IMG/VR virus record: IMGVR_UViG_3300037258_000332
Span: 1 to 25,552 of that record
Strand: one strand, 5' to 3'
DNA length: 25,552 nt
Source: a virus
The position numbers and the translations under genes are program-made. This document shows, piece by piece, positions 1,106-23,367 of the stretch; positions within the stretch are counted from its first letter, which is position 1, and every line of letters begins with the position of its first letter. The notes beneath the pieces were generated by a model that was not told the origin of the DNA, searched no databases, and worked only from the letters and a program-made list of their open reading frames with translations.

Positions 1106-1114
1106 GAGATTGAC

Positions 1115-8020: not shown

Positions 8021-8041
8021 CCAGACCCTGGCACTGAACCG

Positions 8042-8070
8042 AAAGGCCCGGCAACGGGCCTTTTCTTTTT
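8042..8070 (+). terminator. intrinsic terminator with GCAA tetraloop
   Basis: Stem GGCCCG (8045-8050) pairs with CGGGCC (8055-8060) around a GCAA tetraloop, extended by A-T pairs, and is followed by TTTTCTTTTT (8061-8070). The protease-scaffold Shine-Dalgarno GAGGA begins only a few bases later. Strong by appearance. Confidence 0.8.
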
Positions 8071-8085
8071 CCACTCGAGGACTCC

Positions 8086-9498
8086 ATGGCGAAGCTCACC
8101 ACCGAACAGCGCAAGGCGTTGCCGGAGTCTGATTTCGCCGTACCCGAGACCCGCGACCTGCCGATGCATGACCAGGACCACGTCAAGATGGCGTGGAACA
8201 TGGTCGATAAGACCAAGGACCTGAGCGACGTCCAGCGCACCGAAGCCAGGCGCCGGATTCTTGAGCGCGCCAAGAGCTTGGGTATCGATACCAGCGACTG
8301 GCACACCATCAAGGCTATGGCGTTCGAGGCCATAAGCCTGGAGGCCATGAGCGTCGAGGTCCCGGAGACACCGGACCACCCGAACAAAGTCCCATTCAGC
8401 GGCGTGCTCTGCTTCGTGGACCGCCCCAGCGACAAGGCCCCTGAAGGCAGCAAAGGCAAGCGCGTGATCATCACCGCTGCTGCCGCCCGCGCCGCCATCC
8501 CGACCATTCTGTTGATGGGCGTGGATTACAAGGAAAAGTTCGACGGCCACGACGTGACGAAGAAGATCGGCGTCATCACCGCCGGCGACGTCGTAGGCGA
8601 AGAATTTCAGATCAAAGGTTTCCTCTACGGTTCCGACTTCCCAGAACAGGTCGCTTACATCCAAGCGCATAAAGACGAGCTTGGCTTCAGTTATGAAGTC
8701 AAACGGGCTTTGATTGCGTCCATGGATGAACCTGTCTTGACTGTCGAGAGCTTGATTTTCAGTGGTGCCGCCATCCTCAAGAAAAAGGATGCGGCCTATA
8801 CATCAACTTCTTTGTCGGCGAATGCCGACGCGGAGATCGACATGACGAAGGAAGAACTGACCGCATTGTTCGCGGAAGCCGAGAAGAACATGGCCAGCAA
8901 GATCGAAGCCGCCGTGGCCGAGGCCCTGAAGAAGAACACGGATACCAGCCTCAGCGCCGCTTCGGTGCTGTCCAAGGTGAAGAAGCACAGCGACAGCCTG
9001 CGCAGCTGCGCCGCCGGCATGGAAGCCGATGGCATCGGCATGCATAACACCGGCGGTCACGTCCACCTGTTGCGGCGCATGGCCGACAACATGGAAGCCG
9101 AGGCCAGCAAGGGCAGCCTGCCGAGCTACTACAACAGCGGCAGCGATTTCCATGCCGCTGCCCAGCCCAGCGAGGCCGACCTGAAGGCCGCTGCCGACAA
9201 GCAGAAGGCCGACATCACCGCTGCCGTGACCGCGGCGCTCGAACCGCTCAAGACCGAGTTCGCCGATTTGAAGGCCAAGGCCTTCGATAAGGCGGCTGGT
9301 CCCGAGCGCAAGACGTTGCCGGCCTCGATCCAGCAGTTGGTGGACAAGGGCCACCTGAAGCTGGATGCGGCTGCCGATGCCGATGCCAAGGTCAGCGCTG
9401 CCGACCTCGACAAGGCCCTGACCGCTGCCGGCGTGACCAGCATCAGCCAGCGCATGGCCTTCAAGACCGAACTCGCTGCCGCCGGCCGCCTGGCCTAA
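8086..9498 (+). CDS. capsid maturation protease fused to scaffold
   Basis: The 470-aa product has three regions. Residues 1-75 (MAKLTTEQRKALPESDFAVP, then MHDQDHVKMAWNMVDK) resemble the DUF6582 module found at the front of some phage proteins. Residues about 98-235 look like an S78-type prohead protease: FDGHDVTKKIGVI with candidate catalytic His155, GFLYGSDF, and ELGFSYEVK with candidate Ser202. Residues about 250-470 are helical, rich in Ala, Lys and Glu, and suit an internal scaffold that is cleaved during maturation. The gene directly precedes the major capsid gene, as protease-scaffold genes do. The ATG at 8086 has GAGGA upstream. Catalytic residues are assigned by eye. Confidence 0.75.
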   Translation: MAKLTTEQRKALPESDFAVPETRDLPMHDQDHVKMAWNMVDKTKDLSDVQRTEARRRILERAKSLGIDTSDWHTIKAMAFEAISLEAMSVEVPETPDHPNKVPFSGVLCFVDRPSDKAPEGSKGKRVIITAAAARAAIPTILLMGVDYKEKFDGHDVTKKIGVITAGDVVGEEFQIKGFLYGSDFPEQVAYIQAHKDELGFSYEVKRALIASMDEPVLTVESLIFSGAAILKKKDAAYTSTSLSANADAEIDMTKEELTALFAEAEKNMASKIEAAVAEALKKNTDTSLSAASVLSKVKKHSDSLRSCAAGMEADGIGMHNTGGHVHLLRRMADNMEAEASKGSLPSYYNSGSDFHAAAQPSEADLKAAADKQKADITAAVTAALEPLKTEFADLKAKAFDKAAGPERKTLPASIQQLVDKGHLKLDAAADADAKVSAADLDKALTAAGVTSISQRMAFKTELAAAGRLA

Positions 9499-9527
9499 GC
9501 CGCTTCACCAAACGACAACCAGTCGCA

Positions 9528-9544
9528 GGCCCCACAACGGGGCC
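9528..9544 (+). other. GC-rich hairpin upstream of capsid gene
   Basis: GGCCCC (9528-9533) pairs with GGGGCC (9539-9544) around ACAAC. No T tract follows, so this is not a standard terminator; it may protect the capsid mRNA 5' end or mark a processing site. The capsid Shine-Dalgarno AAGGA lies about 20 nt downstream. Confidence 0.5.
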
Positions 9545-9578
9545 GGCGCGGTCCTCTATTGCCTAAGGAATAACTGCA

Positions 9579-10568
9579 ATGAAAGACGCACGCTTCCTGG
9601 ACTCCATCAGCGCCAGCGCCGACTTCCTCGGCCCCGGTGCTATCGAGACCAACCGCTACGAGAACGAGATCACCGACCTGGTGCGCCGCAAGTCCATCGC
9701 CTTGGAGCGCATCCAGCACGTCCCCGCGACCGGTCAGCCGACCCGCTACTTCGAGCAGACCGCCATCGCCCAGGGCACGTTCCAGACCACCCAGAACGCA
9801 CTCAGCCCGACGCCGGCGACGCCGACCCGTGCCGAGCGTTCGGCGGTCATCAAGGCCATCGCCAACCAGACCAACATCACGCTGTTCGACCGCGACGTGA
9901 CCCGCCAGCAGGGCCAGTTCGCATCCATCGTCGCCCAGGACGTGGAAGACGTCATCAACGGCGTCGTGGTGGTCTCGGCGGCGGCGCTGTGGAACGGCAC
10001 CGACACCAGCCTGGTGACCCCGACCACGGCGCAGTACGTGGGCCTGCTGACACAGATCACGCAGACCAGCGTGTTGGTCAGTGGCACGAGCATCATCGAC
10101 GGCCTGAAGGCTCAGGTCGCGACGATGATGGCGAACACGACCTTCGACGTGCGGCCGACGGCGATCTACGTCAACCCCATCCTGGCCGACCTCATCGACC
10201 AGGAAGCCAAGGCCAACCACTTCCAGCTCAATGAGACTGAGGTGGTGGCGGGCGTCAAGGTCCTGTCCATCCAGACCCAGGCCGGCAAGCTGCCGATCAT
10301 CCCCGACCCGTACATCCCCAGCAGCACGAGTTCGGCGTTCGGCTTCTCCGCTCCGCCGGCGGGCCAGACCAACTACTTCGCCGTCATCACCACCGAAGAC
10401 ATGATCAAGATCTTCTACGTGTCCGGCGAGACCCAGAACCCCAAGCCGCGCCTGTTCGAGCTCGGCCTGGTCGGCAACCTCAACGGTCAGTTCGTGTCGG
10501 TGCTGTTCGATGCGCCTGTCGCGAAGGGCCCCAGCTACGCCCATGCCGTGGTGTGCGTCCAGCACTAA
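9579..10568 (+). CDS. major capsid protein
   Basis: The 329-aa product forms the icosahedral shell. It shows the style of an HK97-fold capsid protein: an N-terminal arm (residues 1-35), an ALERIQHVPATGQPTRYFEQ segment (41-60) suited to the E-loop region, a long central alpha/beta part with VRPTAIYVNPILADLIDQEA (188-207), VVAGVKVLSIQTQAGKLPII near 218-237, and a C-terminal YFAVITTEDMIKIFYVSGE segment. The order protease-scaffold, then capsid, and the length both fit. AAGGA is well placed before the ATG. A hairpin precedes it and two terminator-like structures follow, consistent with a highly expressed transcript. Confidence 0.88.
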   Translation: MKDARFLDSISASADFLGPGAIETNRYENEITDLVRRKSIALERIQHVPATGQPTRYFEQTAIAQGTFQTTQNALSPTPATPTRAERSAVIKAIANQTNITLFDRDVTRQQGQFASIVAQDVEDVINGVVVVSAAALWNGTDTSLVTPTTAQYVGLLTQITQTSVLVSGTSIIDGLKAQVATMMANTTFDVRPTAIYVNPILADLIDQEAKANHFQLNETEVVAGVKVLSIQTQAGKLPIIPDPYIPSSTSSAFGFSAPPAGQTNYFAVITTEDMIKIFYVSGETQNPKPRLFELGLVGNLNGQFVSVLFDAPVAKGPSYAHAVVCVQH

Positions 10569-10593
10569 CGGTTGAGCCTTAGCTGAACGCAAA

Positions 10594-10662
10594 GCCAGCC
10601 CCACCCGTGTCTCATCCACGGGCAGTACCTGTCTCCCGGCAGGGCGGGGCTGGCCCTATTTT
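10594..10662 (+). terminator. branched terminator-like structure after capsid gene
   Basis: GCCAGCCCC (10594-10602) is perfectly complementary to GGGGCTGGC (10646-10654), and the downstream side is followed by CCTATTTT. Inside lie a 6-bp hairpin, CCCGTG (10604-10609) with CACGGG (10617-10622), and a 4-bp hairpin, CCTG (10628-10631) with CAGG (10640-10643). The whole can form a three-way junction. It is not a tRNA: no acceptor, anticodon or T-loop signature is present. Confidence 0.6.
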
Positions 10663-10673
10663 CCGGGGGCGAT

Positions 10674-10700
10674 GCCGCGCCGTCGCGCGGCTTTTCCTTT
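10674..10700 (+). terminator. second intrinsic terminator after capsid gene
   Basis: GCCGCGC (10674-10680) pairs with GCGCGGC (10685-10691) around CGTC and is followed by TTTTCCTTT. The Shine-Dalgarno GGGAG of the next gene starts 2 nt later. It lies 20 nt behind the branched structure, giving a tandem terminator between capsid and connector genes. Confidence 0.75.
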
Positions 10701-10713
10701 CCGGGAGACGAAC

Positions 10714-10959
10714 ATGAAAGTGTATTCGCCGCACGAGAAGCAACAGAAGGGCAAGCACACGATCCGGCTGACCCCTGGCACCAAGAACCCTGACTCCGCG
10801 TTCATGCGAGAGAACGAGAAGGGCGAGAAGGTACCTCAGCTCTTCACCGTGACCTTCAACGACGGCATGGCCGTGGTCGATGACGCGCTCGGTAAGTGGA
10901 TGGTGGACAACAAAGTCGCGCTCAAGAGCAAGAAGCTCATCAAGCTGCTGACCGACTAG
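10714..10959 (+). CDS. small hypothetical protein, 81 aa, post-capsid
   Basis: The ATG at 10714 has GGGAG upstream; an earlier in-frame start at 10672 lies inside the terminator stem and is rejected. The product is basic and Lys-rich: MKVYSPHEKQQKGKHTIRLT, then PQLFTVTFNDGMAVVDDALG and a C-terminal KSKKLIKLLTD. This strand-rich centre with a short helical tail could be a small head protein or a connector accessory, but no family is recognised. It is followed after 9 nt by the connector gene, whose Shine-Dalgarno overlaps this TAG stop. Confidence 0.65.
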   Translation: MKVYSPHEKQQKGKHTIRLTPGTKNPDSAFMRENEKGEKVPQLFTVTFNDGMAVVDDALGKWMVDNKVALKSKKLIKLLTD

Positions 10960-10968
10960 GAGCCGTAG

Positions 10969-11889
10969 ATGCCGCAGAGCCAGTATCTGACCGGCGGCGA
11001 CCTCGCGGCCTATGGCGTCGCCGGGGCCACCACGCAACAGGTATGCACGGCATCGGTCCTGGTGGACACGTACCTGCTCCGCCCAGAGGGCATGGTGTGG
11101 GCGCCTGATTCCAGCGGCCGTCCGGGTTGGATGGTCGCCAAGGATCCGGTGCTGACGCTGCATAGTGCAGGCGCGATCTCGCCAGGTCTCAACGTCCAGG
11201 TGCCGGTGGTTGAGACTAATGTCGCGCCGATGCTGCAACCCGGCGATGTCATGATCCTGGACCGGCAGAGCACAGGCCCCTTCGTCGGCGAGACCGTTGT
11301 CGTTGGTTCAGTCATCAACGGCATCATCACCCTCAACCAGGTCCTGTACGCACACAGCGGCGGCGTCACCCTCGAGACCGGCATGGTCATCGTCGAGGAG
11401 CGGGTGCTGCCTTCGGGACGTCCTAAGAGCCGTGTCGCGCATTGGCCTGTGGCGCGCATGGTCTCGGGCTTGGGCCGTTATGGCTTCGGCCGGCGCAGCC
11501 AGGGCAGCAGCGGCTACCCGTTGGAGGCCTTCAACCTCCTGGCCACGCTGCAGCAGTTCGGTGGCCCGCCCATCTGGGAACAGATGGACGTGACGCACAT
11601 GGGCATAGAGCCGGAAGGTGACTTCTGGATTCCCGCTGGCATCCTCTTGGCGTACTACACCCGCGTCAAGCTCGCATTCGTGTGCGGCTGGCCCGTGGGT
11701 GCGTTGCCGAGTTGGGTCAAGCAGGCAGTGGCCAACGTCATCATCAACACCGGCGCCACCATCGGCATGCCGCCGAACATCAAGTTGGCCAAGGCCGGAG
11801 ACACACAGCTCACGCGCTGGGCCAGTAGCAACATCGACGAAGACACCAAGGCCATGATCCAGAGGTATCGAGTCCGGGACTTCGCCTAA
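10969..11889 (+). CDS. putative head-tail connector/adaptor protein
   Basis: The 306-aa product begins QYLTGGDLAAYGVAGATTQQ (residues 4-23) and continues with VLVDTYLLRPEGM, which resembles the opening of phage head-tail adaptor proteins, where helical segments bind the portal. The middle (about 60-140) is beta-rich with LQPGDVMILDR and similar strands. The C-terminal part is helical with SWVKQAVANVIINTG near 245. Position directly after the capsid gene and before a head-closure candidate supports an adaptor role. It is larger than minimal adaptors, so the central domain may be extra. It starts with GGAG 6 nt upstream and ends in a TAATG overlap with the next gene. Confidence 0.6.
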   Translation: MPQSQYLTGGDLAAYGVAGATTQQVCTASVLVDTYLLRPEGMVWAPDSSGRPGWMVAKDPVLTLHSAGAISPGLNVQVPVVETNVAPMLQPGDVMILDRQSTGPFVGETVVVGSVINGIITLNQVLYAHSGGVTLETGMVIVEERVLPSGRPKSRVAHWPVARMVSGLGRYGFGRRSQGSSGYPLEAFNLLATLQQFGGPPIWEQMDVTHMGIEPEGDFWIPAGILLAYYTRVKLAFVCGWPVGALPSWVKQAVANVIINTGATIGMPPNIKLAKAGDTQLTRWASSNIDEDTKAMIQRYRVRDFA

Positions 11890-12251
11890 TGAGCTTTCTC
11901 TACCCGCGCGTCATCACGGTATGGCGCTTGCCCAAGCAGAATGCTGCCGGCGCACAGGGCTACATCGGGCAGACCGACGCCCAATATCAGCAGCAGCCGC
12001 AGCCGACACCGGTGAGCATCCAGGCGGCGGTGCAGATGAAGAAGGATTCTGGCTCTCAGCCCGCGCATCTGGCAGCGGATGTCAGCAAGCGCGTGTACTG
12101 GGAGATCCTGACCGCACCCGGCCCGCAGCCCACGACTTTCGAATCCAACGACATCGTCAAGGACGACCTCGGCCGCAGGTTCCAGGTCGTGGGCTCGTAT
12201 CTGACCGCTTTCGGCAACTGGCAGTGCCTAGCCGAACGACAGGAGGCCTGA
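11889..12251 (+). CDS. putative head closure (stopper) protein
   Basis: The 120-aa product starts MSFLYPRVITVWRLPKQNAA and has a Gln-rich loop (YQQQPQPTPVSIQA) followed by a strand pattern ending NDIVKDDLGRRFQVVGSYLT and WQCLAERQE. Small beta-barrel proteins of about this size after the adaptor commonly plug the head, as in the SPP1 gp16 and lambda gpFII group. The D-x-x-G-R-x-F-x-V-V motif is typical of this sort of protein. Assignment is by size, order and motif style only. It shares one base with the previous stop and lies 1 nt before the tail terminator-like gene. Confidence 0.55.
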   Translation: MSFLYPRVITVWRLPKQNAAGAQGYIGQTDAQYQQQPQPTPVSIQAAVQMKKDSGSQPAHLAADVSKRVYWEILTAPGPQPTTFESNDIVKDDLGRRFQVVGSYLTAFGNWQCLAERQEA

Positions 12252-12252
12252 T

Positions 12253-13062
12253 ATGGCCGACCTATCCGATGTCGGGATCTGGTTCGAGGCTCAGTGCACG
12301 ACCATTTGCTACCCAAATGGCTCTTCGCAGCCGCCCATTACCGGAAGCGGCAAGACCATCAGCCTGGGCCGGGGATGGCCGGATCCGAAGACACTTGATG
12401 CCGTGATGGCGGCTGGTGTCGGCAATGCCTACGTCAACATCTACCCCATGCCTGGCATGGAGCGCAACACCACGCGCTTCCCCAAGGCCTGGCAGCAGGT
12501 ATCTGTGACCGCAGCGACTCTGACCCTCACGGTCAGCGGCCGCACCGTGACCGTTGGCGGCACGCCGGCGGTAGGCCAAGGCGCCGTGGTTTCCGTGAAC
12601 ACGCAGCCCTATGGCTACGCGCTCGTGGGCGGCGACACCTTGAACAGCATCGCCGCGGCTTTGGCGGCCCTTATCCCAGGAGCCAGCGCTGTCGGCGCGG
12701 TCGTGACCGTTCCCGGCGTGTCGCCACTGAGCGCGGCCGTGAGTGTCACCGGCACCGCAGCCATGGAGACTAGGCGGCAACAGCGGGTGTTCGGCGTCTA
12801 TGTCTGGGCTCCAGATCCGGTGACCCGTGACACGGTGGCCCAGGCCATAGACGGTGCCATGGCCGTGATCGAGCGCTTCACGCTGCCGGATGGATTCTCG
12901 GCACGGCTGATCTATCACGGCACCATGGAAACCGATGAGCTGCAGGCTCGCCTAATCTACAAGCGGAGCCTGATGTATTCGGTCGAGTACGCGACCACCA
13001 CGACCCAGACCACACAGACCGTCGGCGCTACCAGCGTCGGCATTGCATCCGCAACGGGCTAG
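12253..13062 (+). CDS. putative tail terminator/completion protein
   Basis: AGGAGG is perfectly spaced before the ATG at 12253. The 269-aa product has an N-terminal block with ICYPNGSSQPPITGSG, RGWPDPKTLDAVMAAG and VNIYPMPGMERNTTRFP (about 18-77), a central Thr/Val-rich insert (about 85-170), and a C-terminal block with RRQQRVFGVYVWAPDP, DGFSARLIYHG and RSLMYSVEYATT. The split alpha/beta layout and the position just upstream of the sheath suit a protein that caps the tail tube and joins it to the head. The central insert includes DTLNSIAAALAALIPGA and looks like an added domain. Function is inferred. Confidence 0.6.
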   Translation: MADLSDVGIWFEAQCTTICYPNGSSQPPITGSGKTISLGRGWPDPKTLDAVMAAGVGNAYVNIYPMPGMERNTTRFPKAWQQVSVTAATLTLTVSGRTVTVGGTPAVGQGAVVSVNTQPYGYALVGGDTLNSIAAALAALIPGASAVGAVVTVPGVSPLSAAVSVTGTAAMETRRQQRVFGVYVWAPDPVTRDTVAQAIDGAMAVIERFTLPDGFSARLIYHGTMETDELQARLIYKRSLMYSVEYATTTTQTTQTVGATSVGIASATG

Positions 13063-13078
13063 ACCCGAAGGAACCGAT

Positions 13079-13246
13079 ATGGCCGATGATAACCAGCCCC
13101 AGGTATCCGCCAAGACCGCGAAGAAGCCGCTGCTGACGGTGCGCGAGCCCTTCGACGACTACCAGAAGGGCGACCAGATCTTCGACGCCGACGAGGCCAA
13201 GACCGTCCAGGAATCGCATCCCCATTTCGTGACGCGCCTGCCCTAA
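13079..13246 (+). CDS. small protein before the sheath, 55 aa
   Basis: The ATG at 13079 follows AAGGA with good spacing; an in-frame start at 13043 would overlap the previous gene and is less likely. The product reads MADDNQPQVSAKTAKKPLLT, then DDYQKGDQIFDADEAKTVQE and a final PHFVTRLP. A pattern of a GD-I-D turn followed by a short helix and an FV-R end is common among small phage head or tail accessory proteins, but I cannot assign a family. It is followed by a clear terminator before the sheath gene. Confidence 0.65.
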   Translation: MADDNQPQVSAKTAKKPLLTVREPFDDYQKGDQIFDADEAKTVQESHPHFVTRLP

Positions 13247-13270
13247 AGCGGACGCTGACTGACCCACGCC

Positions 13271-13297
13271 AAGCCGCCTCGAGCGGCTTTTTTATTT
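13271..13297 (+). terminator. intrinsic terminator before sheath gene
   Basis: AAGCCGC (13271-13277) pairs with GCGGCTT (13283-13289) around CTCGA and runs into TTTTTTATTTC. This has the longest uninterrupted T run of the series. The sheath ATG lies about 23 nt downstream of the tract. Confidence 0.8.
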
Positions 13298-13319
13298 CCT
13301 CCTTTCGAGTGAGGCATCC

Positions 13320-14867
13320 ATGATCATCCCGCAGGGCAGTATCAACGCCACGGCGCTCGTCGTCCCCGACCTCTACGTCGTCATCATCCCGCCGTCGGTG
13401 ACGCTGCTCAACGGCGTCCCCACCAACATCATCGGCAACGTCGGCACCGCGAGCTGGGGGCCCGTGAACGCGCCTGTGGTGTGCTCGGACATGGCCAGCT
13501 ATGCCCGCAGCTTCGGCCCGATCATGCCGCGGAAGTTCGACCTCGGCACGGTGGTCGCCGCCGAAGTGCTGCAGGGCGCCAATGACTTCGTCTGCGTACG
13601 CGTCACCGACGGCACGGACGTCGCTGCTACCGCCATCCTCCAGGACACCAGCAACGCCACCGGCGTAACCCTGACCGCCAGATACACCGGCAGCCTGGGC
13701 AATAGCATCACCGCGACGGTTGCCAACGGCAGCAAGGCCAGCACGTTCAAGGTCACGTTCGTACTCCCTGGCCAGGTACCGGAGGTGTTCGATAACATCG
13801 CCGGCACGGGCCTGCCGTTGTGGACTGCCATCGCCGCAGCCATAAACAACGGCAACAGCGTGAGCCGTGGCCCGAGCCAGTTCTTCACCGGTGCTGTGGG
13901 CTCTTCCGTCGTCGCTCCGAAACTGGCCTCGGTAACCGCTGCCAGTGGCACCGATGGCGCCACCACCATCACCTCCAGCGTGCTGGTGGGTGCAAATACC
14001 GGTAACCGCACGGGCATGTACGCCCTGGCCGGCACCGGCGCCAGCATCGGCGTGCTCGCTGATGCCGACGACACCACGCAGTGGGCCAACCAGGACGCCT
14101 TCGGCCTGGCCAACGGCATCTACATGCAGCTGGTGAACCCGGCGGGCCAGGTGGGCGCTACCGGCGCGGCTACGGCCGCTACCAACAAGGCCACCGCCGG
14201 CATCGACGACTACGCGTCGAAGATGTACATGGGCGACTGGATCTACTTCAGCGACACCGTCAACAACGTCACACGCCTGATCTCGCCCCAGGGCTTCGGT
14301 GCCGGCCGCTTGGCCAACCTCAGCCCCGAACAGTCGAGCCTGAACAAGCGCATGTACGGCATCGTCGGCACCCAGAGCGGTGCTGTGAACATCACCTATG
14401 CCGACGCCGACCTGGTTGGCTTGGTCAATGCCGGTATCGAGCTCATCACCAACCCCTGCCCGGGCGGCAACTACTTCGGCTGCCGTATCGGTCAGAACTG
14501 CAGCAGCAACTCCGCCATCAACGGCGACGAGTACACCCGGCTCACGAACTACATCGCCGCGACCCTCAATGCCGGCATGGGGCCGTACGTAGGCCAGCTG
14601 CAGACCGTCCAGGAGCGCTTGGACGCGCAGACCGCCATCCAGTCGTCCCTGTCCAACATGTGGGACCAGGAGATGATCGGGGACGTCAACAACCCCACGC
14701 AGCCGCCGTTCTCGGTGGTCATCAGCGCCAGCAACAACCCCACGTCACAGGTGGTGACGGGAGTGCAGGTGGCGACGGTGCAGGTCAAATACCTGTCGGT
14801 GGTCCGCAAGTTCCTGATCAACTTCCAGGGCGGCCAGACCGTCCAGATCGCCGTGCAGCCGGCCTAA
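13320..14867 (+). CDS. tail sheath protein
   Basis: The 515-aa product is the contractile sheath subunit that drives the tube through the envelope. The N-terminus contains a P-x-x-Y-V-V-I-I-P-P segment and the characteristic VGTASWGPVNAPVVCSDMA (about 41-59), then FDLGTVVAAEVLQGANDFVCVRVTDGT. The middle region (about 115-330) is a variable outer domain rich in Thr, Ala and Gly. The C-terminal region has GLVNAGIELITNPCPGG, an INGDEYTRLTNYIAATLNA helix and ends VVRKFLINFQGGQTVQIAVQ, the conserved core. Size and order (sheath then tube) are decisive for a myovirus. Confidence 0.88.
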   Translation: MIIPQGSINATALVVPDLYVVIIPPSVTLLNGVPTNIIGNVGTASWGPVNAPVVCSDMASYARSFGPIMPRKFDLGTVVAAEVLQGANDFVCVRVTDGTDVAATAILQDTSNATGVTLTARYTGSLGNSITATVANGSKASTFKVTFVLPGQVPEVFDNIAGTGLPLWTAIAAAINNGNSVSRGPSQFFTGAVGSSVVAPKLASVTAASGTDGATTITSSVLVGANTGNRTGMYALAGTGASIGVLADADDTTQWANQDAFGLANGIYMQLVNPAGQVGATGAATAATNKATAGIDDYASKMYMGDWIYFSDTVNNVTRLISPQGFGAGRLANLSPEQSSLNKRMYGIVGTQSGAVNITYADADLVGLVNAGIELITNPCPGGNYFGCRIGQNCSSNSAINGDEYTRLTNYIAATLNAGMGPYVGQLQTVQERLDAQTAIQSSLSNMWDQEMIGDVNNPTQPPFSVVISASNNPTSQVVTGVQVATVQVKYLSVVRKFLINFQGGQTVQIAVQPA

Positions 14868-14890
14868 ACCGGAACGCCATCAACACCTGA

Positions 14891-14917
14891 CCCCGCCTAG
14901 GCGGGGCCTTTCTTTTC
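14891..14917 (+). terminator. intrinsic terminator between sheath and tube genes
   Basis: CCCCGC (14891-14896) pairs with GCGGGG (14901-14906) around CTAG and is followed by CCTTTCTTTT. AGGAG for the tube gene starts 2-3 nt after the T tract. This may lower tube or downstream expression relative to sheath, or act as an antitermination target. Confidence 0.78.
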
Positions 14918-14929
14918 CAGGAGCCTCCC

Positions 14930-15361
14930 ATGCCTCTGAATGGCTTTTCCATAGGCCGCGATGTCAGCTTGAACATCAACACCTCGACGGGTGCGCTGAC
15001 GCTCAGCCTGATCACCAGCTTCAAGTCCCGCCAGCAGGTGGTGAAGAAGTCCATCAAGGGCCTGGACGGCCTCACGCGCACGCTGAAGTTCCCCAACGGC
15101 TGGGCCGGCAGCTTCGACGTCGAGCGCCAGGACTCGACCTTGGACGATTACATCGCCCAGGACGAGGCCAATTACTACGCCGGCCAGGACAACCCCACTA
15201 TCACCATCACCGAGACCATCACCGAAGTCGATGGCTCCGTGTCTCAATACCAGTACAAGAACTGCACGCTCACCCTGTCCGACGCCGGCGACAAGAAAGG
15301 CGACGACACCATCAAGCAGAGCCTGGAGTTCGAATCCGAACAGCGCCTCAAGCTCAGCTGA
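14930..15361 (+). CDS. tail tube protein
   Basis: The 143-aa product follows the sheath gene and forms the inner tube. It is beta-rich: GFSIGRDVSLNINTSTGALT (residues 5-24), an ITSFKSRQQVVKKSIKGLDG segment, PNGWAGSFDVERQDSTLDDY near 62-81, and strands ITITETITEVDGSVSQYQYK and NCTLTLSD, ending QSLEFESEQRLKLS. The size, the SFDVERQDS-type sequence and the final L-x-F-E-S-E strand fit myovirus tube proteins with a single beta-sandwich domain. AGGAG lies before the ATG. Expected to be one of the most abundant virion proteins. Confidence 0.85.
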   Translation: MPLNGFSIGRDVSLNINTSTGALTLSLITSFKSRQQVVKKSIKGLDGLTRTLKFPNGWAGSFDVERQDSTLDDYIAQDEANYYAGQDNPTITITETITEVDGSVSQYQYKNCTLTLSDAGDKKGDDTIKQSLEFESEQRLKLS

Positions 15362-15390
15362 CCTTTCTCTGATCGCAACCGGGAGCCAAC

Positions 15391-15790: not shown

Positions 15791-15932
15791 GTTCCTGGTC
15801 GGCAACGGCATCCCCTTCGACGTGGCCATGCAGCTCTCAGAGATTGACCGGGCGGCGTACTGCATCATCTTCAGTGAGCAGAACGGTGCCAAGTTCAACT
15901 GGCGAACCATGGAATTCGACAAGCCGACATGA
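15756..15932 (+). CDS. tail assembly chaperone C-terminal extension (GT-like, -1 frame)
   Basis: The -1 frame from the slippery site encodes 58 residues up to TGA at 15930-15932, beginning SVATSEPLKEALFLVGNGIP and containing FDVAMQLSEIDRAAYCIIFS and a final NWRTMEFDKPT. It lacks its own start codon, so it is expected only as part of a fusion of about 180 aa with the upstream G-like protein. In lambda-type systems the extension binds the tape measure or the tube. The segment with DVAMQLSEIDRAAYCIIFSE resembles the GT part of other phages. Its stop overlaps the ATG of the next gene (ATGA). Confidence 0.85.
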   Translation, partial: SVATSEPLKEALFLVGNGIPFDVAMQLSEIDRAAYCIIFSEQNGAKFNWRTMEFDKPT

Positions 15933-16492
15933 GCGCGCGCGAGTTTCCATCCCTCACCGAGTTCGGCCTGCACCTCGCCGAGATCGCCATCGCCGAGGAC
16001 GAGTTCATACACGCAGGCCTGGACCGTGCCGCGGCGCTGATCGAGCGCGAGGCCAAGCGCGAGTTCGGAGTGTATCAGCCTGCCACGGGTCCATTCCCGG
16101 CGTGGCCAGAGCTCGCTGATTCCACGCAACAGCGCCGCGAGGACATGGGCTACACGCCCAACGACCCGCTGCTCGCGAGTGGCGCTACAAAAGAGACCGT
16201 GTCCCGCGAGGTCCATGGACTCGATGCGGTGGTGGGCTCGACGTCAGACTTGATGATCTACCACGAGTTCGGCACCAGCCGCATGCCAGCGCGCCCCGTG
16301 TTCGGACCGGCTTGGTTCAGGAACCGAGAAGCGGTGGGCAGGTTGGTGGCGGAAGGCGCCGTGCTCGGCATCATCGGCTTGCGTAGCTTCGGGTTCGCAC
16401 AACATCGCGAAGCCGGGCAGCTGCCGGTACATGAATCCCTGGGATACGACTCCTCGGTATCAGCCGAAGACGGCAACGCCGGCGAGGAATAG
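15929..16492 (+). CDS. HK97 gp10-like tail/neck protein
   Basis: The 187-aa product carries the marker IYHEFGTSRMPARPVFGPAW (about residues 110-129), typical of the HK97 gp10-like group of minor virion proteins, which are usually neck or tail-completion proteins. The N-terminal half is helical with LIEREAKREFGVYQPATGPF, and DPLLASGATKETVSREVHG leads into the motif. It starts in an ATGA overlap with the GT frame. Placement between the chaperones and the tape measure is unusual for this group, which is more often near the head-tail joining genes, so its role here may differ. It ends with TAG, and 184 nt separate it from the tape measure gene. Confidence 0.75.
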   Translation: MSAREFPSLTEFGLHLAEIAIAEDEFIHAGLDRAAALIEREAKREFGVYQPATGPFPAWPELADSTQQRREDMGYTPNDPLLASGATKETVSREVHGLDAVVGSTSDLMIYHEFGTSRMPARPVFGPAWFRNREAVGRLVAEGAVLGIIGLRSFGFAQHREAGQLPVHESLGYDSSVSAEDGNAGEE

Positions 16493-16678
16493 AACGAATC
16501 CAAGAACGGCCAGTGCAACCAAGGCCCCGGCTCCGCCCAGAACACCAAGCAAAAGCCGCTGCTCAGGCAGCAGCTGGTATCCCAGCGGCTGTATGCGCGG
16601 GATGTATTGCTGTCTCGGGTATTGAACCGAAGCGAAGCGATCCGCAAACCACTCACGGACCCTGAGCCAAACCGCCAT
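16460..16678 (-). CDS. candidate antisense small membrane protein, 72 aa
   Basis: On the - strand an ATG at 16678-16676 opens 72 codons ending at 16460. The product starts MAVWLRVREWFADRFASVQY, has a proline- and glutamine-bearing middle, and ends with a hydrophobic segment of about 29 residues (LLLGVLGGAGALVALAVLGF, then VLFLAGVAVF), a convincing membrane span. It fills the gap between the gp10-like gene and the tape measure almost exactly, and its start shares a CATG palindrome with the tape measure start. Against it: every neighbour except the right-end hydrolase is on the + strand, no strong Shine-Dalgarno is visible, and antisense of polar codons often looks hydrophobic. A + strand alternative (16431-16625) is less protein-like. 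Confidence 0.35.
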   Translation of the reverse strand: MAVWLRVREWFADRFASVQYPRQQYIPRIQPLGYQLLPEQRLLLGVLGGAGALVALAVLGFVLFLAGVAVFG

Positions 16679-18563
16679 GTTCGAAGCCTATAAAGTCGGC
16701 ATACGCCTGAGCCTGGTCAGCAATGTTGCGACCGGGCTTGCGGCCATGTCAAGGCAGTTCACGGCCACCGGTGCACAGGCCAAGGCGCTGCAGGTCGAAC
16801 TCGGGCGCATCCGTGCGCTGGCTCTGACCGGGGGCGCCGTCACCGGCCTGGGCCTGTTCGGGCTGGGCATGATGGACAAGGCCCTGAAGCCGGCTGAGGC
16901 ATATGCTCATCAACTGAACGTAATGAACATGGCCGGCCTGAAGCAGGTCGACATCGCCAATGCCGTTGGAGCGGCGTGGAAGACCTCACACGAGGCCATG
17001 ACCACGACCGCTACAGAGAACCTCAAGACGTTCATGGATCTGCGCGCCGTCCTTGGTGATGCCAGCCATGCAACGGCCGTCATGCCCATCGTCGCCAAGC
17101 TCTCGGCCGTCCTGGCGGCCTCAGGAGACACGAAGATCAGCGGCAGCGCTCAGGACCTGGCCTTCAGCGTCGCCAAGGCCCTGGACGTCAAGGGCAGCGC
17201 CATCGACCCCGGGCAGTTCACCAGCGGCGCGGAGCAGATCGCGAAGGTCATCAGCGCATTCCAGAGCCGGGTGACGCCCGAGCAATATCTGTCGGTTGTG
17301 CGATACGCTCGCCAGGCCAAGTTCGGCCTCAGCGACGAGTTCATGTATCAGTTGCTGCCGACGCTCATGCTTGAGAACGCGAGCAAGGGCGGTGGCGGTG
17401 GTGGCAGCCGCGGCGTGGGTCCGATGCTGGCAGCCTTCTACCGGCTCACCAACCAGGGCTTCGTCAACAAGAAGTCGATCCCGCTCCTGGAGCAGCTGGG
17501 CCTGATAGCGCCGGGTTCGTCCATGAGCACGACCACCACCGGCAGCATGGTCAACGCCTTGCGCGGACACGAGTTGGCGGCTTCGAATCCCTTCGCCTGG
17601 GTCCAGACCGTGCTGCTGCCGGCGATACACCATGCCTATGGCCAGAACCTGAGCCGCGAACGCCTGCAGGAGATCATCAACGGCGTATTCCGCGGCAACC
17701 AACTCGGTGCCAACTTGGCTCTCGAGTTCGCGCTCAAGCCCCAGAACTTCCTCCGCGACCAGAAGATCATCCAAGGCGCGATGCCTCTGAATGAGGCCTA
17801 CAACTCAGCAATAACACAGGATCCTGGTACCGCTCGCAGGGCGCTGGATGCGCAGTGGGAGAACCTGAAGGTCTCGCTGATGATGGGCTTGGTGCCGATC
17901 CTGATACCGCTGCTCACCAAGCTGGCGAACGTCTTCATGTTCATCGGCGACATCCTCCGCGATCACCCGCTACTGGCTCAGTCATTGGCGGTCGGCTTCA
18001 CCAGCCTCTTCGCCATCATGGGTCTCGTCATCGGCCCGATGCTGTTGTTCAACGCCTCTTTGGCCGCGCTGAAGCTGGCGCTGCCGGGCGTGCTGACATC
18101 ATTCGGCGGCGTGACCTCATCCTTGAGTCTTATGGGCAAGCTCGGCGCCGTCGTGGCCGCGGGTTGGCTCGGCTATACCGTCGGCAGCATCATCAACGAC
18201 TACGTCATCTCCCCGCTGATCCAGAAGCTGACCGGCGGCAAGGACGACAGCCTGGGGAGTTGGCTCTACGACTTCACCCACCCCAACCAGTACGACCCCA
18301 AGGCGCCTAAGCCGAATCTGAAGAATGGTCTGACTCTCACCGATGAGCATGGCAATGCCATAGCCCAGCCCTCCGCTGTTGGACCCAATGCCGGTAACCG
18401 CACCCTGGTGCTGCATTCGAACCTGCACATCGACAGCAAGCTCCTGGCCAAGACCGTGACCAAGCATCAGGTCCGGCTGATGGGTGGGCCCAATACCAGT
18501 TCCCAGGGCATGAGTCTGGATCAGTATCTGCCCCCTGACGCACCGAGCCTGGCCACGCCGTGA
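16677..18563 (+). CDS. tail tape measure protein
   Basis: The 628-aa product is the longest in the tail module. It begins MFEAYKVGIRLSLVSNVATG, typical of tape measure starts, and is rich in Ala, Leu and Gly helices. A Gly run (KGGGGGGSRG, 237-246) breaks the middle. Hydrophobic stretches lie at about 401-424, 436-470 and 488-510, consistent with a segment that enters the host membrane during DNA injection. The gene follows the chaperones and precedes the baseplate genes, as expected. Its length would set the tail length. No lytic enzyme domain is visible. The Shine-Dalgarno is weak, and the end overlaps the next gene by a GTGA. Confidence 0.88.
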   Translation: MFEAYKVGIRLSLVSNVATGLAAMSRQFTATGAQAKALQVELGRIRALALTGGAVTGLGLFGLGMMDKALKPAEAYAHQLNVMNMAGLKQVDIANAVGAAWKTSHEAMTTTATENLKTFMDLRAVLGDASHATAVMPIVAKLSAVLAASGDTKISGSAQDLAFSVAKALDVKGSAIDPGQFTSGAEQIAKVISAFQSRVTPEQYLSVVRYARQAKFGLSDEFMYQLLPTLMLENASKGGGGGGSRGVGPMLAAFYRLTNQGFVNKKSIPLLEQLGLIAPGSSMSTTTTGSMVNALRGHELAASNPFAWVQTVLLPAIHHAYGQNLSRERLQEIINGVFRGNQLGANLALEFALKPQNFLRDQKIIQGAMPLNEAYNSAITQDPGTARRALDAQWENLKVSLMMGLVPILIPLLTKLANVFMFIGDILRDHPLLAQSLAVGFTSLFAIMGLVIGPMLLFNASLAALKLALPGVLTSFGGVTSSLSLMGKLGAVVAAGWLGYTVGSIINDYVISPLIQKLTGGKDDSLGSWLYDFTHPNQYDPKAPKPNLKNGLTLTDEHGNAIAQPSAVGPNAGNRTLVLHSNLHIDSKLLAKTVTKHQVRLMGGPNTSSQGMSLDQYLPPDAPSLATP

Positions 18564-19537
18564 CGCCACTGACCCTGACCGATAGCAGCGGCAACGTCTT
18601 CACGTTCCAACGCTTCGAGATACCTGAGGTCTTGCCCTTCGGCGGCACGCAGCGCCTGTCCGTGCACGAGTACCCCGGTGGTGGCCGCAGCATCGACGCC
18701 ATCGGCTACCAGCCCAAGACCATGGAATGGACCGGCGAGCTCACCGGTCCCAATGCCGTAACCCGTGGTCGCTACCTCGAGACGCAGATGGCGCAGGGCA
18801 CGTTCTTCACCCTGGGGTGGAGCGAGTTCAGCTATGAGGGCGTGATCGCAGAGTTCACCGGCAACTTCATGCAGGAAGGCCGGATACCGTACACGATCCG
18901 GTTCGAACCCGAGACCGACCTCACGCAGCCGGTAAATATCGGCAGCAGCGCCACGGTGGACCAGGCCATCCTCGGCGATATGAGTGCCGCCAGCGCCTTG
19001 GGCACGACCATCAACGACGGCGTGCTGTCGGGGCTGCTCAGCACCCTCAATAGCGCGATCTCGGCGGTCTCCAGCTTCGCCCACGCCGCGCAAAGCGTCA
19101 TCGCCTCCGTGACCCAGCCCCTGGCAGAGGTGCAGCAGCGCGTACAGGTACTGATCGCGAGCAGCGAGAACACGATCAAGAACATCACCACGTTCGGCGG
19201 CCTGGTGCCGAACAACCCCGTGGCGCAGCAAGCCGCTGGCCTCAGCAACACCACCAACGCCTTCACGCAGTCGGCAGCGCTCTACAACCTCAACAGCGTC
19301 GTCGGCCGCATGGGCGGCAACTTGACTGCCTTGAGCGGTCCCTCGCCAGATACCAAGACCGTCACCGTGACCGGCGGCACCCTCTACGGCGTCGCGGCCC
19401 AGGAATATGGCGACGCCACGCAGTGGCAGACCATAGGCGATGCCAATGGCATCAGCGATCCCGTGCTCCAAGGCGTGGTCACGCTCAAGATCCCGCCGGC
19501 GCCTCCTGGCACTAAGCCTCAGGTGCCGACACCGTGA
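18560..19537 (+). CDS. baseplate protein with N-terminal DNA-circularisation-like and C-terminal LysM domains
   Basis: The GTG at 18560 overlaps the tape measure TGA (GTGA). The 325-aa product has an N-terminal domain with FQRFEIPEVLPFGGTQRLSV (14-33) and a strand-rich stretch IGYQPKTMEWTGELTG, resembling the DNA_circ_N/gp53 group. A helical Ala/Ser-rich middle follows (about 135-250), and the C-terminus has VTGGTLYGVAAQEYGDATQW and GISDPVLQGVVTLKIPP, a LysM-like peptidoglycan or protein-binding domain. LysM-bearing proteins in this position connect the tape measure to the baseplate hub (T4 gp53 and P2 gpX-like roles). The role is inferred from domain and order. Confidence 0.7.
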   Translation: MTPLTLTDSSGNVFTFQRFEIPEVLPFGGTQRLSVHEYPGGGRSIDAIGYQPKTMEWTGELTGPNAVTRGRYLETQMAQGTFFTLGWSEFSYEGVIAEFTGNFMQEGRIPYTIRFEPETDLTQPVNIGSSATVDQAILGDMSAASALGTTINDGVLSGLLSTLNSAISAVSSFAHAAQSVIASVTQPLAEVQQRVQVLIASSENTIKNITTFGGLVPNNPVAQQAAGLSNTTNAFTQSAALYNLNSVVGRMGGNLTALSGPSPDTKTVTVTGGTLYGVAAQEYGDATQWQTIGDANGISDPVLQGVVTLKIPPAPPGTKPQVPTP

Positions 19538-20592
19538 GGCAGCCACGCGGCCTGATTCGGGTCAATGGCAACCTCATCACGGGCTGGACAGAATTCGAAG
19601 TCACGAGTAACAGCCTGTATAAGGCCGACGAGTTCGAAGCCACGCTGTCGCTACGTAATGCCGCGCCCGGTCTGGATTGGACGTGGTGGGCCAGCCAGCA
19701 GGTACTGACGGTCGAGATTTATGCCGGCGTGCCCCAGGACCCGACGCGTTATGACGCCAACGACCTCACCCAGCTCATCGTCGGCAACGCCGACCTGGTG
19801 GACACGGACCCGGTGATGGGCACCGTGCACCTGACCGGGCGCGACAATACCGCGCTGTTGATCGATACCAAGACCGACCAGAAGTATCAGAACCTGACCG
19901 CGTCTCAGATCGCGACGCAGCTGGCCGAGGCCGCTGGGCTGACTGCAAACGTCACCGCGACCACGACCAAGGCCGGCGTCTACTACAACATCGACCACGT
20001 CCTGCCGTCCACCGAGCGCAGCCAGTGGGACCTGCTGACGTATCTGGCGCAGCGTGAAGAATTCACGGTAGGGGTGAGCGGCAACACCCTCACCTTCGGC
20101 CCGTTGGCGCCTGACCAGACCGTCTATCCCATCAACTGGATAGAGCCGGATCCGGTCCTGCCACAGGCCAACGTGCCGCGAATCGGCTTCAGCCACAACC
20201 TCACGCTGGCCCGTGACGTGGTGGTTAAGGTCAGGAGCTGGAACGCGGCGCAGAAGCAGGCCTTCACCAAGACCGCCACGGTCAAGCACAAGAGCGGAAG
20301 CCCCGGGCAGCCGCAGACCTACAGCATCGTCAAACCCGGTCTGACTCCGGACCAGGCTCAGCAGCTGGCCCAGAGCATGGCCCTGAACATCAGCCTGCAC
20401 GAGATAAGGATGCGGCTTGATAACATGCCCGGTGACGGCTTGCCGACGACGCAGCAGGCTCTGGAACTCACGGGCACGCCCTACGACCAGACCTTCTACC
20501 CGGAGAAGATCACGCGGCGCTTCAGCAGTGGCAGCTACGTCATGGACATTGAGTCCAAGAACGTACGGCCTGAGTCGGAGGTATTGGTTTGA
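19534..20592 (+). CDS. baseplate hub protein (P2 gpD/T4 gp27-like)
   Basis: The GTG at 19534 again overlaps the preceding TGA. The 352-aa product begins GLIRVNGNLITGWTEFEVTS and contains the hub-type strand FEATLSLRNAAPGLDW, a helical LTASQIATQLAEAAGLTANV segment (about 121-140), and QWDLLTYLAQREEFTVGVSG, which matches late-control gpD and T4 gp27-like hubs. The C-terminal part has a DIESKNVRPES end. The hub ring sits between the tube and the spike, and the next gene encodes a gpV-like spike, supporting the call. Confidence 0.8.
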   Translation: MRQPRGLIRVNGNLITGWTEFEVTSNSLYKADEFEATLSLRNAAPGLDWTWWASQQVLTVEIYAGVPQDPTRYDANDLTQLIVGNADLVDTDPVMGTVHLTGRDNTALLIDTKTDQKYQNLTASQIATQLAEAAGLTANVTATTTKAGVYYNIDHVLPSTERSQWDLLTYLAQREEFTVGVSGNTLTFGPLAPDQTVYPINWIEPDPVLPQANVPRIGFSHNLTLARDVVVKVRSWNAAQKQAFTKTATVKHKSGSPGQPQTYSIVKPGLTPDQAQQLAQSMALNISLHEIRMRLDNMPGDGLPTTQQALELTGTPYDQTFYPEKITRRFSSGSYVMDIESKNVRPESEVLV

Positions 20593-21164
20593 GCGACATG
20601 GTCTCGATCATGAAGCTGGCGGCCTCGATGATGCTCGGTGGTCGCGCCATCTGCCGTGTCGGACTGGTGAGCGCGTATCAGGGCCAGCCGTTCTCGGCCA
20701 AGGTCAGGATCATGCCAGAGGATGTGGAGACGGGCTGGTTGCCCATCGTCACCATCTTCGGCGCTTCGGGCTGGGGTCTCGCTGCGGCACCAGCAGTCGG
20801 TGCGCAGGCCGTGGTGATCTACCAGGAGTCGGACCCAACCATCGGCATGGTGCTGGGGTTCCTGTTCAGCGTCTCCGACCAACCGCCTGGCCCCGTGGCC
20901 TCTGGCGACATGTGGCTGACCCACAGCACGGGTTCGCTGCTCAAGTTCACCGGTGACGGAAACGTGACCGTCAACGCCCACGCCAAGATGATCATGCAGG
21001 CCAGCGAGTTCGACCTCACCGGCACTGTGAAAGTGACCGGAGACCTGCATGCCACCGGCACCGTGACAGGCGATACCGACGTCAAGACAGGCACGGTATC
21101 GCTCAAGACCCATGTGCATCCCGGCGTCACCTCAGGCCCGAGCGTCACCGGACTACCGCAGTAA
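20589..21164 (+). CDS. baseplate spike/assembly protein (gpV-like)
   Basis: TTG at 20589 is the likely start: GGAGG at 20577-20581 is 7 nt upstream, whereas the ATG at 20598 would be 16 nt away, and TTGA overlaps the previous stop. The 191-aa product has an N-terminal OB-fold-like region (VGLVSAYQGQPFSAKVRIMP, then WGLAAAPAVGAQAVVIYQES) and a C-terminal strand-repeat tip ending with HVHPG (H175, H177). In P2 gpV and related membrane-piercing spikes an HxH pair at the tip binds iron, and a similar role is likely here. It would be at the centre of the baseplate. Confidence 0.85.
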   Translation: MSDMVSIMKLAASMMLGGRAICRVGLVSAYQGQPFSAKVRIMPEDVETGWLPIVTIFGASGWGLAAAPAVGAQAVVIYQESDPTIGMVLGFLFSVSDQPPGPVASGDMWLTHSTGSLLKFTGDGNVTVNAHAKMIMQASEFDLTGTVKVTGDLHATGTVTGDTDVKTGTVSLKTHVHPGVTSGPSVTGLPQ

Positions 21165-21536
21165 ATGGACCTCTACCACCAATTCGGTTCCGACCTCATC
21201 GTCGGCGCCAACGGCGACCTCTTGCCTGCGACAGCCGATACCGAGATCCAGCAACGCCTGTTGCGGCGCCTGTTCACGCCTGAGGGCGCCTATCTATGGC
21301 AACTGGACTTCGGCGCCGGTGTGCCGCAGCGCGTGGGCGACACGCTCTCGCCATCGGTATCGGGACAGATCCTGGCCCAGATCAAGGCCGCCATCGCGCT
21401 TGAGCCTGGCATCGCTCAGATACCTGTCCCCGTCATCACTCTCTCGACCGTGGATGGAGGCCTCGTCGGCTCGATCCAGTACGTGGACGCACAGACCAAG
21501 TTGCCCGCTGTCATCACCTTCCCGGAACCCACATGA
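21165..21536 (+). CDS. baseplate wedge protein (gp25/gpW-like)
   Basis: The ATG directly follows the TAA of the spike gene. The 123-aa product begins MDLYHQFGSDLIVGANGDLL and contains EIQQRLLRRLFTPEGAYLWQ and FGAGVPQRVGDTLSPSVSGQ, the pattern of gp25-like baseplate wedge proteins. These join the sheath to the baseplate wedges. The size (about 110-140 aa) is normal. Order spike, gp25-like, gpJ-like, gpI-like matches P2 (V, W, J, I), which strengthens this assignment. It ends in an ATGA overlap with the next gene. Confidence 0.85.
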   Translation: MDLYHQFGSDLIVGANGDLLPATADTEIQQRLLRRLFTPEGAYLWQLDFGAGVPQRVGDTLSPSVSGQILAQIKAAIALEPGIAQIPVPVITLSTVDGGLVGSIQYVDAQTKLPAVITFPEPT

Positions 21537-22663
21537 GCCTGAATACCAAGGACTTCAACACCGTCGTCAGTGACCAGGTCACGACGATCCAGTCACAGGT
21601 CCCGCAGTTCAGCAACTTCAATTCCGGCACCGTGCTGCTGGCCATAGTCCAGGCCGTGGCCAGTGTGGTCATGTACCTGCAAAGCCTGCTGACGCAGATG
21701 TATGCGTTCGCCCGGGCCAGTACCTCGGCAGGCTCCGATCTCGATAGCTGGATGGCTGACTTCGGTCTGACCCGGCTGCCGGCGGTGGCGGCTTCGGGCC
21801 AGGTCACCTTTGCACGGTTCACGCCCACGGCTGCGGCTACCATCCCGGTGGGCACCAACGTCGAGAGCGGCGACGGCACGCAGGTGTTCGCGGTCATCGC
21901 GGATGCGACGAACCCGAACTATGTGCCGAGCCAGAGCGCCTACGTCTGCCCGGCCAATACCTCGAGCATCGCCGTCACGGTCCAGGACACGGTGGCGGGC
22001 GCTGCGGGCAACGTCATCATCGGCGCGCTCAATACCCTCACCAGCCCCATCGTCGGCATCGACACCGTCACCAATGCCGCTGCCTACCTCAACGGCGCCA
22101 ATGCCGAGACCGATGCCGCGTTCCGGATCCGGTTCCAGAACTACCTGGCCAGCCTCGCCGAATCCACGCCCACCGCCATCGGCAATGCCATCGCCTCTGT
22201 TCAAGCCGGCCTGACCTACACCTTGACCGAGGACCTGGACTTCAACGGCGCCACGGACAACGGCTACTTCTACGTGGTCGTGGACGACGGCTCGGGCGCG
22301 CCTTCGGGGCAGCTGCTGGCCAACATCGCCGCGGCCATCAACTTGGTGCGCGCCGCCGGCGTCCGTTTCGGCGTGTTCGGGCCCACGGTGCTGACGGCGA
22401 ACATAGCCATGACCATCACCACGGCGCCTGGCTACACGCACTCGGTGATCGTCGCGGCAGTCACGGCGGCCATCGAGGCCTATGTCAACGCGCTGGCGGT
22501 GGGCGCGACGCTGCCCTATACCATCCTGGCCAGCATCGCCTACAGCTATGGCGGCGGCGGAATCGTTACCAATGTCACCGGGGTCGGCCTCAACAGTGGC
22601 ACCTCGGACCTGGTACCGACGGGTAAGCAGGTCATCAAGTACGGCACGGTGGTGGTGACATGA
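21533..22663 (+). CDS. baseplate J-like protein
   Basis: The 376-aa product has the gpJ/gp47 pattern: an N-terminal helix region with GTVLLAIVQAVASVVMYLQS, YAFARASTSAGSDLDSWMAD (about 58-77), FTPTAAATIPVGTNVESGDG (about 91-110), and ETDAAFRIRFQNYLASLAES (about 191-210). The C-terminal half has DNGYFYVVVDDGSGAPSG and a strand-rich end. It forms the wedge core that expands on host binding. Length and order, between gp25-like and gpI-like genes, agree. It starts and ends with 4-nt ATGA overlaps, so it is strictly coupled to its neighbours. Confidence 0.88.
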   Translation: MSLNTKDFNTVVSDQVTTIQSQVPQFSNFNSGTVLLAIVQAVASVVMYLQSLLTQMYAFARASTSAGSDLDSWMADFGLTRLPAVAASGQVTFARFTPTAAATIPVGTNVESGDGTQVFAVIADATNPNYVPSQSAYVCPANTSSIAVTVQDTVAGAAGNVIIGALNTLTSPIVGIDTVTNAAAYLNGANAETDAAFRIRFQNYLASLAESTPTAIGNAIASVQAGLTYTLTEDLDFNGATDNGYFYVVVDDGSGAPSGQLLANIAAAINLVRAAGVRFGVFGPTVLTANIAMTITTAPGYTHSVIVAAVTAAIEAYVNALAVGATLPYTILASIAYSYGGGGIVTNVTGVGLNSGTSDLVPTGKQVIKYGTVVVT

Positions 22664-23304
22664 ACTCCCTGACGCGCCTGCTGCTGGCCATACCGCGGTG
22701 GTTCGGCAGCACATTCCCCGCACTCACGGCGCTGCTCGCCGGCATCGGCACCGCGCTCGACAACTTCACCGCGCTCTGCGGCTATATCAAGCTGCAGCTC
22801 CGCATCAGCACTGCCACCGACGGCTTCCTCGATCTCATCGCCGGCGACTACTTCGGCCAGAGTCTAAGCCGGAACCCTGGCGAGACCGATGCCAGCTTCC
22901 GGTCGCGCATCAAGTCCAACCTGTTCGCGCCGGTGGTGACGCGGGCCGCGATCTTGGCCCGGCTCTACACCTTGACCGGACGCGTCGCGACCATCTTCGA
23001 ACCCGGCAACCCGCTGGACACCGGCGGTTACACCGTCGGCGGCTGCGGCTACGGCGTCGCCGGAGGCTGGGGCAGCATCAACATGCCCTGTCAGTTCTTC
23101 GTCTATCCCAAGCGCCAGGCACAGAGCGGCATCCCCTTCGTCGGCGGATACGGCAGCAGCGTCGGCGCTTACTCGACGCCGTCCCAAGCCGAATACGCGG
23201 ACCTGAACATGGCCATCCAAGGCGTCCCGGATTCGACCATCTACGCCCTCATCAACAAGATCCGCGCCACCGGCATCACCGCCTGGGTCCAGATCAGCAA
23301 CTAG
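22660..23304 (+). CDS. baseplate/tail protein, gpI- or DUF2612-like
   Basis: The 214-aa product is the last member of the baseplate operon and starts in an ATGA overlap with the gpJ-like gene. Marker segments are STATDGFLDLIAGDYFGQSL (about 50-69), ETDASFRSRIKSNLFAPVVT (about 74-93) and a Gly-rich patch (TGGYTVGGCGYGVAGGWGSI). The D-x-x-F-R-x-R-I pattern recalls the family of tail proteins that join wedges to fibres, including DUF2612 proteins. It precedes the fibre gene, so a wedge-fibre connecting role is likely. It ends with TAG, and a UUCG-loop terminator follows 25 nt later. Confidence 0.75.
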   Translation: MNSLTRLLLAIPRWFGSTFPALTALLAGIGTALDNFTALCGYIKLQLRISTATDGFLDLIAGDYFGQSLSRNPGETDASFRSRIKSNLFAPVVTRAAILARLYTLTGRVATIFEPGNPLDTGGYTVGGCGYGVAGGWGSINMPCQFFVYPKRQAQSGIPFVGGYGSSVGAYSTPSQAEYADLNMAIQGVPDSTIYALINKIRATGITAWVQISN

Positions 23305-23329
23305 TCGAACCCACAACCTAATTCCCTTG

Positions 23330-23356
23330 GACCCGCTTCGGCGGGTCTTTTCATTT
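23330..23356 (+). terminator. intrinsic terminator with UUCG tetraloop before fibre gene
   Basis: GACCCGC (23330-23336) pairs with GCGGGTC (23341-23347) around TTCG, the very stable C(UUCG)G closure, and is followed by TTTTCATTTC. AGGAG for the fibre gene starts 1-2 nt later. It separates the baseplate operon from the fibre gene. Confidence 0.8.
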
Positions 23357-23367
23357 CAGGAGCATCC

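Follow-up and report, generated by a model that had tools for sequence, protein, structure and literature searches.

Why should sequences resembling transcription terminators stand directly in front of the structural genes of a virus? This question is raised by a 25,552-base virus record (the window, that is, the whole stretch of DNA analysed), which carries a head and contractile-tail gene block. Terminase, portal, sheath, neck and baseplate genes were recognised in it by profile, and the capsid gene weakly. A side observation among the gene assignments is a 117-codon reading frame (1710-2063, plus strand) with an in-frame TAG at 1884-1886; the gene is broken or the sequence in error, unless the stop is suppressed.

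The original prediction held that a hairpin, a T-rich tract, a Shine-Dalgarno (SD) sequence and a start codon follow one another at six boundaries, and all six cassettes were found on the plus strand. Cassette 1 (1189-1239) consists of a hairpin at 1189-1218, a T-tract at 1217-1225, the SD GGAGG at 1228-1232 and the ATG of gp86 at 1239. Its hairpin had been drawn as CCGCA-AGGGCC-TGCGG at 1200-1215 and was replaced by a better fold with an 8+4 bp stem, a 1x1 internal loop, a GCAA loop and an abutting T-tract; the fold of 1140-1239 is no more stable than shuffles (z -0.76). The other five hairpins lie where they had been predicted. Cassette 2 (8041-8086) has its hairpin at 8041-8064 (loop GCAA), T-tract at 8061-8070, SD GAGGA at 8077-8081 and the ATG of a 470-aa gene at 8086. 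Cassette 3 (10674-10714) has its hairpin at 10674-10691, T-tract at 10692-10700, SD GGGAG at 10703-10707 and the ATG of gp81, the gene after the capsid gene, at 10714. Cassette 4 (13271-13320) comprises a hairpin at 13271-13289, a T-tract at 13288-13297, the SD GAGG at 13311-13314 and the ATG of the tail sheath gene at 13320. Cassette 5 (14891-14930), with a hairpin at 14891-14906, a T-rich stretch at 14909-14916, the SD AGGAG at 14919-14923 and an ATG at 14930, precedes a 143-aa gene in the tail-tube position; its hairpin is the weakest (fold z-score 0.13). Cassette 6 (23329-23368) has its hairpin at 23329-23348 (loop TTCG), T-rich stretch at 23348-23356, SD AGGAG at 23358-23362 and the ATG of a 598-aa gene in the fibre position at 23368. 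The names "protease-scaffold" for the 470-aa gene and "fibre" for the 598-aa gene are names from position: family searches gave just DUF6582 (at the N-terminus) and a PHROG of unknown function for the former and no match for the latter. A GC-rich hairpin that has no T-tract (9528-9544, plus strand) precedes the capsid gene (ATG 9579). In the capsid-gene leader of the closest relative (L003) the hairpin differs in sequence from that of the window, and several relatives have a full cassette there.

A combined scan for a stem, a T-tract, an SD, an ATG or GTG start and an ORF of at least 60 codons returned exactly these six sites on the plus strand and none on the minus strand, while 60 dinucleotide shuffles of the window gave a mean of 0.017 cassettes and a maximum of one. 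A plain terminator scan found 7 terminators against 7.8 expected in the first half of the window (the first 13 kb), which is not significant, and 12 against 6.6 in the second half; the signal is thus significant once SD and start codon are required as well. Related viral contigs, represented by about 70 loci (71 distinct, some overlapping), had 90 cassettes on the coding strand and one on the opposite strand.

Analysis of the hairpins revealed GC-rich stems with short loops, as in intrinsic terminators, and a T-rich tract directly after the stem at five sites of the window, counting site 1 as redrawn; at 14891 the nucleotides CC separate the two. Over the 8 nt that follow a boundary stem the T content is 0.61, compared with 0.23 after strong hairpins generally. 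Among long-leader cassettes it is equal after the stem (0.41) and before the SD (0.40; 14 cases of mixed quality), a comparison that favours neither a terminator nor another kind of hairpin. A terminator score is positive at four of the six window sites as first drawn, at five with site 1 redrawn, and in 80% of the relatives' cassettes, a set pre-selected for the T-run. Two terminator-like hairpins stand in tandem upstream of the sheath gene in four relatives (L032, L107, L110 and L136) and in none of the shuffles. Between the window and L003 no stem substitution disrupts pairing: the 8041 stem carries a compensatory double change from G-C to C-G, and two further stems carry C to T opposite G. 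An abutting T-run, tandem copies and a compensatory swap are, at the level of sequence, features of intrinsic terminators.

Placement across relatives was determined with homologues of the window genes as anchors, counting terminator-like hairpins that end at most 50 nt from the start codon. Such a hairpin precedes the fibre gene in 13 of 17 cases, the sheath gene in 22 of 45, gp81 in 4 of 10, the tube gene in 17 of 45 and the capsid gene in 4 of 27; other structural genes gave 0/26, 0/25, 1/47, 0/38 and similar, and shuffled leaders anchored in the same way mostly had a hairpin in less than 1%. The hairpin sequences vary freely, while their position is kept at about 45-60% protein identity, which bears out the prediction that structure is kept rather than sequence. 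Boundaries are mainly of two kinds, either packed or overlapping and usually free of a hairpin, or separated by a gap of 45-90 nt that in most cases holds a hairpin (capsid 9/11, sheath 12/16, tube 14/16 and fibre 12/13 of the gapped boundaries). Typically the stem begins 17-29 nt (about 20) after the upstream stop codon, and the ATG follows it by 20-22 nt. The spacers between stop codon and hairpin contain 37% C and 20% G, against 30% each in the genomes; these C-rich, G-poor spacers may be just unstructured, or may possibly reflect a Rho-loading bias. A tblastn search of ten upstream regions (L088-L097) found no homologue of the window's terminase and early genes, and cassettes are nearly absent from these regions; upstream of the portal gene the sequences suggest strong mosaicism.

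Comparison of prophages revealed a split between lineages. In named bacteria, 10 of 12 beta- and gammaproteobacterial prophages have the cassette before the sheath gene and 8 of 11 before the tube gene, whereas the corresponding counts for alphaproteobacterial prophages with the same genes and about equal G+C are 3 of 45 and 0 of 46. Loss of the hairpins in relatives, named beforehand as counter-evidence, was thus seen in one large lineage and not in others, and the virion does not demand the cassette. The split tracks phage descent on the sheath tree with just four independent pairs; host class as its cause is inseparable from descent and was set aside. The original prediction also proposed that the hairpins tune stoichiometry by partial termination. 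Sheath and tube are expected near 1:1 in contractile tails, so that such tuning predicts hairpins after the tube gene and none between sheath and tube. The reverse was seen, with hairpins between the two genes and few after the tube gene (2/33 and 3/51), which, together with the near absence in alphaproteobacterial prophages, weakens the simplest form of this proposal.

How, then, are the downstream genes transcribed? A standard promoter scan of the plus strand of the window found no promoter-like site, and the distance from hairpin to gene is too short to accommodate a promoter; expression of the downstream gene therefore needs a polymerase that passes the hairpin. Essential genes must, if the hairpins act as their sequence predicts, be reached by read-through, either leaky or antiterminated. 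We favour a scheme in which the structural genes form a single late operon and the six cassettes would be intrinsic-terminator sequences that fill its intergenic gaps. Each would be joined directly to the ribosome-binding site of the gene that follows, so that RNA polymerase would have to cross it before that gene could be expressed. Productive late transcription would cross the sites in a processive antitermination state, conferred by a protein or an RNA, with some leak; unmodified or spurious polymerases would be trapped at the hairpins, which may also supply stable 3' ends for segmental mRNAs. We give this scheme, terminators passed mainly by antiterminated late transcription, about an even chance of being correct.

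A candidate late antiterminator, by position only, is gp242 (377-1105, plus strand), a basic orphan protein (pI 9.0) whose gene is flanked by that of a predicted Holliday-junction resolvase on one side and by cassette 1 on the other. HK97 and ES18 have their Q gene and late activator gene, respectively, in a comparable place ahead of the late operon. No homologue was found in the viral contigs, phages and genomes searched, there was no Pfam, PHROG or NCBIfam match, and a single-sequence AlphaFold model gave no confident fold (pLDDT 36). The Q families PF06530 and PF03589 were absent from 29 relatives, many of whose records are fragments, as was PF06323, in a search that had no positive control; an Rfam scan of the window gave no match. 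These negative family searches are weak evidence, since antiterminators that lack similarity to Q exist, as exemplified by AlpA (PMC7969949). The predicted late antitermination thus stays plausible through the lack of room for promoters and the company of Q-type phages described below, while its suggested agent, gp242, is an orphan and no Q family was found in the 29 relatives.

The interval downstream of gp242 holds a weak promoter-like match, TTGACG-16-TACCCT with a TG extension (1110-1137, plus strand), which fits at 8 of 12 positions; 27 matches of this quality occur on the plus strand, so that it is not significant alone. The terminator-like hairpin at 1189-1218 lies downstream of gp242 in a possible early-terminator position, although the nearby promoter match is just 8/12. 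Nested inverted repeats occupy 1124-1174, where CAGACT (1124-1129) and AGTCTG (1169-1174) enclose GGGAGA-TGTG-TCTCCC (1149-1164); they could be an operator or a leader RNA. A more elaborate idea, which we hold to be unlikely, is that late antitermination in this phage group depends on a factor not yet recognised, either a protein like gp242 or a leader RNA near 1106-1199, and that serial cassettes work as checkpoints that admit just modified polymerase to the genes of the most abundant virion proteins; one lineage would have lost the system and gone over to tightly packed genes.

Other explanations would do without antitermination. Leaky terminators could by themselves lower transcription in steps and so fix the proportions of the proteins, in the manner of Tphi between capsid gene 10 and tail gene 11 of T7, where a hairpin, T-run, SD and ATG precede gene 11. 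The annotated partial terminator tI of phage 186, which follows the sheath and tube genes, points the same way, as do termination sites mapped by long-read sequencing after the capsid gene of LUZ100 (PMC10134795) and downstream of the CKA15 tube gene (PMC12282133). Yet the sites of the window precede abundant proteins and separate sheath from tube, hairpins after the tube gene are few, alphaproteobacterial prophages with the same genes nearly lack the cassettes, and serial strong terminators would presumably leave little transcript for the fibre gene; we regard leaky termination as possible but doubtful. That the arrangement arose by chance or as a by-product of base composition could be argued from the plain scan, which does not exceed shuffles over the first 13 kb, but full cassettes far exceed shuffles and recur at homologous boundaries from locus to locus (Fisher p 1e-29, with the kinship of loci ignored), and this explanation can practically be dismissed.

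Two explanations place the role of the hairpins in the RNA. As processing or stabilising ends, they would shield upstream mRNA 3' ends or downstream mRNA 5' ends after cleavage. Their distances from the stop codon and the ATG lie just beyond the expected ribosome footprints, and they occur at uncoupled boundaries adjoining abundant proteins, as this role would have it; but this role calls for neither tandem copies nor a T-run directly at the stem, and short GC-rich stems differ from typical RNase III sites, so that as the main role it appears improbable. As translation insulators, the hairpins would keep the SD and start codon clear of upstream RNA structure, and accessibility is indeed 0.48 at cassette starts against 0.41 at tightly packed boundaries. 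In silico, however, it hardly changed from the native 0.482 when the hairpin was shuffled (0.473, p 0.07) or deleted (0.479), the same genes are just as open where they have no hairpin (0.488), and the SD of site 3 is paired in the predicted fold. Insulation is accordingly very improbable. Intrinsic termination is favoured over it on the strength of the stem-adjacent T-run, the terminator scores, the tandem copies in sheath leaders and the near-constant start accessibility on deletion; stabilisation of RNA ends would be possible as a consequence of termination.

Annotations have placed terminators within the late operons of phages for decades, but their purpose has seldom been tested. The homologous operons with and without the cassette, some in named isolates, offer a comparative handle on its role, so that effects on stoichiometry, silencing or RNA stability are open to direct test.

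Comparison with known systems showed that T7 Tphi (24210), whose hairpin and T-run lie 18 nt ahead of gene 11 and are followed by SD and ATG, is like the window cassettes, where the same two elements closely precede the SD of a structural gene. Tphi differs in being a single site, after the capsid gene (gene 10), that acts on T7 RNA polymerase, and it functions without antitermination. The 186 tI site also lies within a tail operon; it differs from the window sites in following rather than preceding sheath and tube, in belonging to an activator-driven operon and in failing the cassette scan. Since both exist without antitermination, the layout does not require it. Many intrinsic terminators in one large operon are shared by the window and the conjugation operon of pLS20, where more than 20 are passed by antiterminated polymerase (PMC8955417); pLS20 is a Gram-positive plasmid, and conAn antitermination has been demonstrated there. 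The late clusters of the Bacillus siphophage SPP1 are similar in layout, being bounded by potential stem-loop terminators with no recognisable late promoters, and most gaps above 45 bp contain such signals (PMC6316719).

Among the phages surveyed, the layout is frequent in HK97, HK022, N15, ES18 and D3, present at the lambda capsid boundary, and absent or nearly so from P2, 186, Mu, D3112 and the structural genes of PB1; the N15 and most HK97 sites were called by annotation and eye, as the SD or T-run fails the strict scan. In HK97, N15, ES18 and D3, putative terminators annotated in GenBank (hairpin, T-run, SD and start) lie in the late operons before protease, major tail, tape-measure or fibre genes or after the capsid gene, with no promoter between; HK97 has an annotated Q and ES18 an annotated late activator. 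The pattern fits a link with late antitermination in this small, non-random sample. These four phages are of lambdoid type with other structural genes, while the window encodes a contractile tail and has sites before the sheath gene and between sheath and tube. The arrangement itself is already known from phage genomes; new are the counts of where it occurs, anchored on homologous genes, in a contractile-tail group that has been little studied, and the observation that one lineage nearly lacks it.
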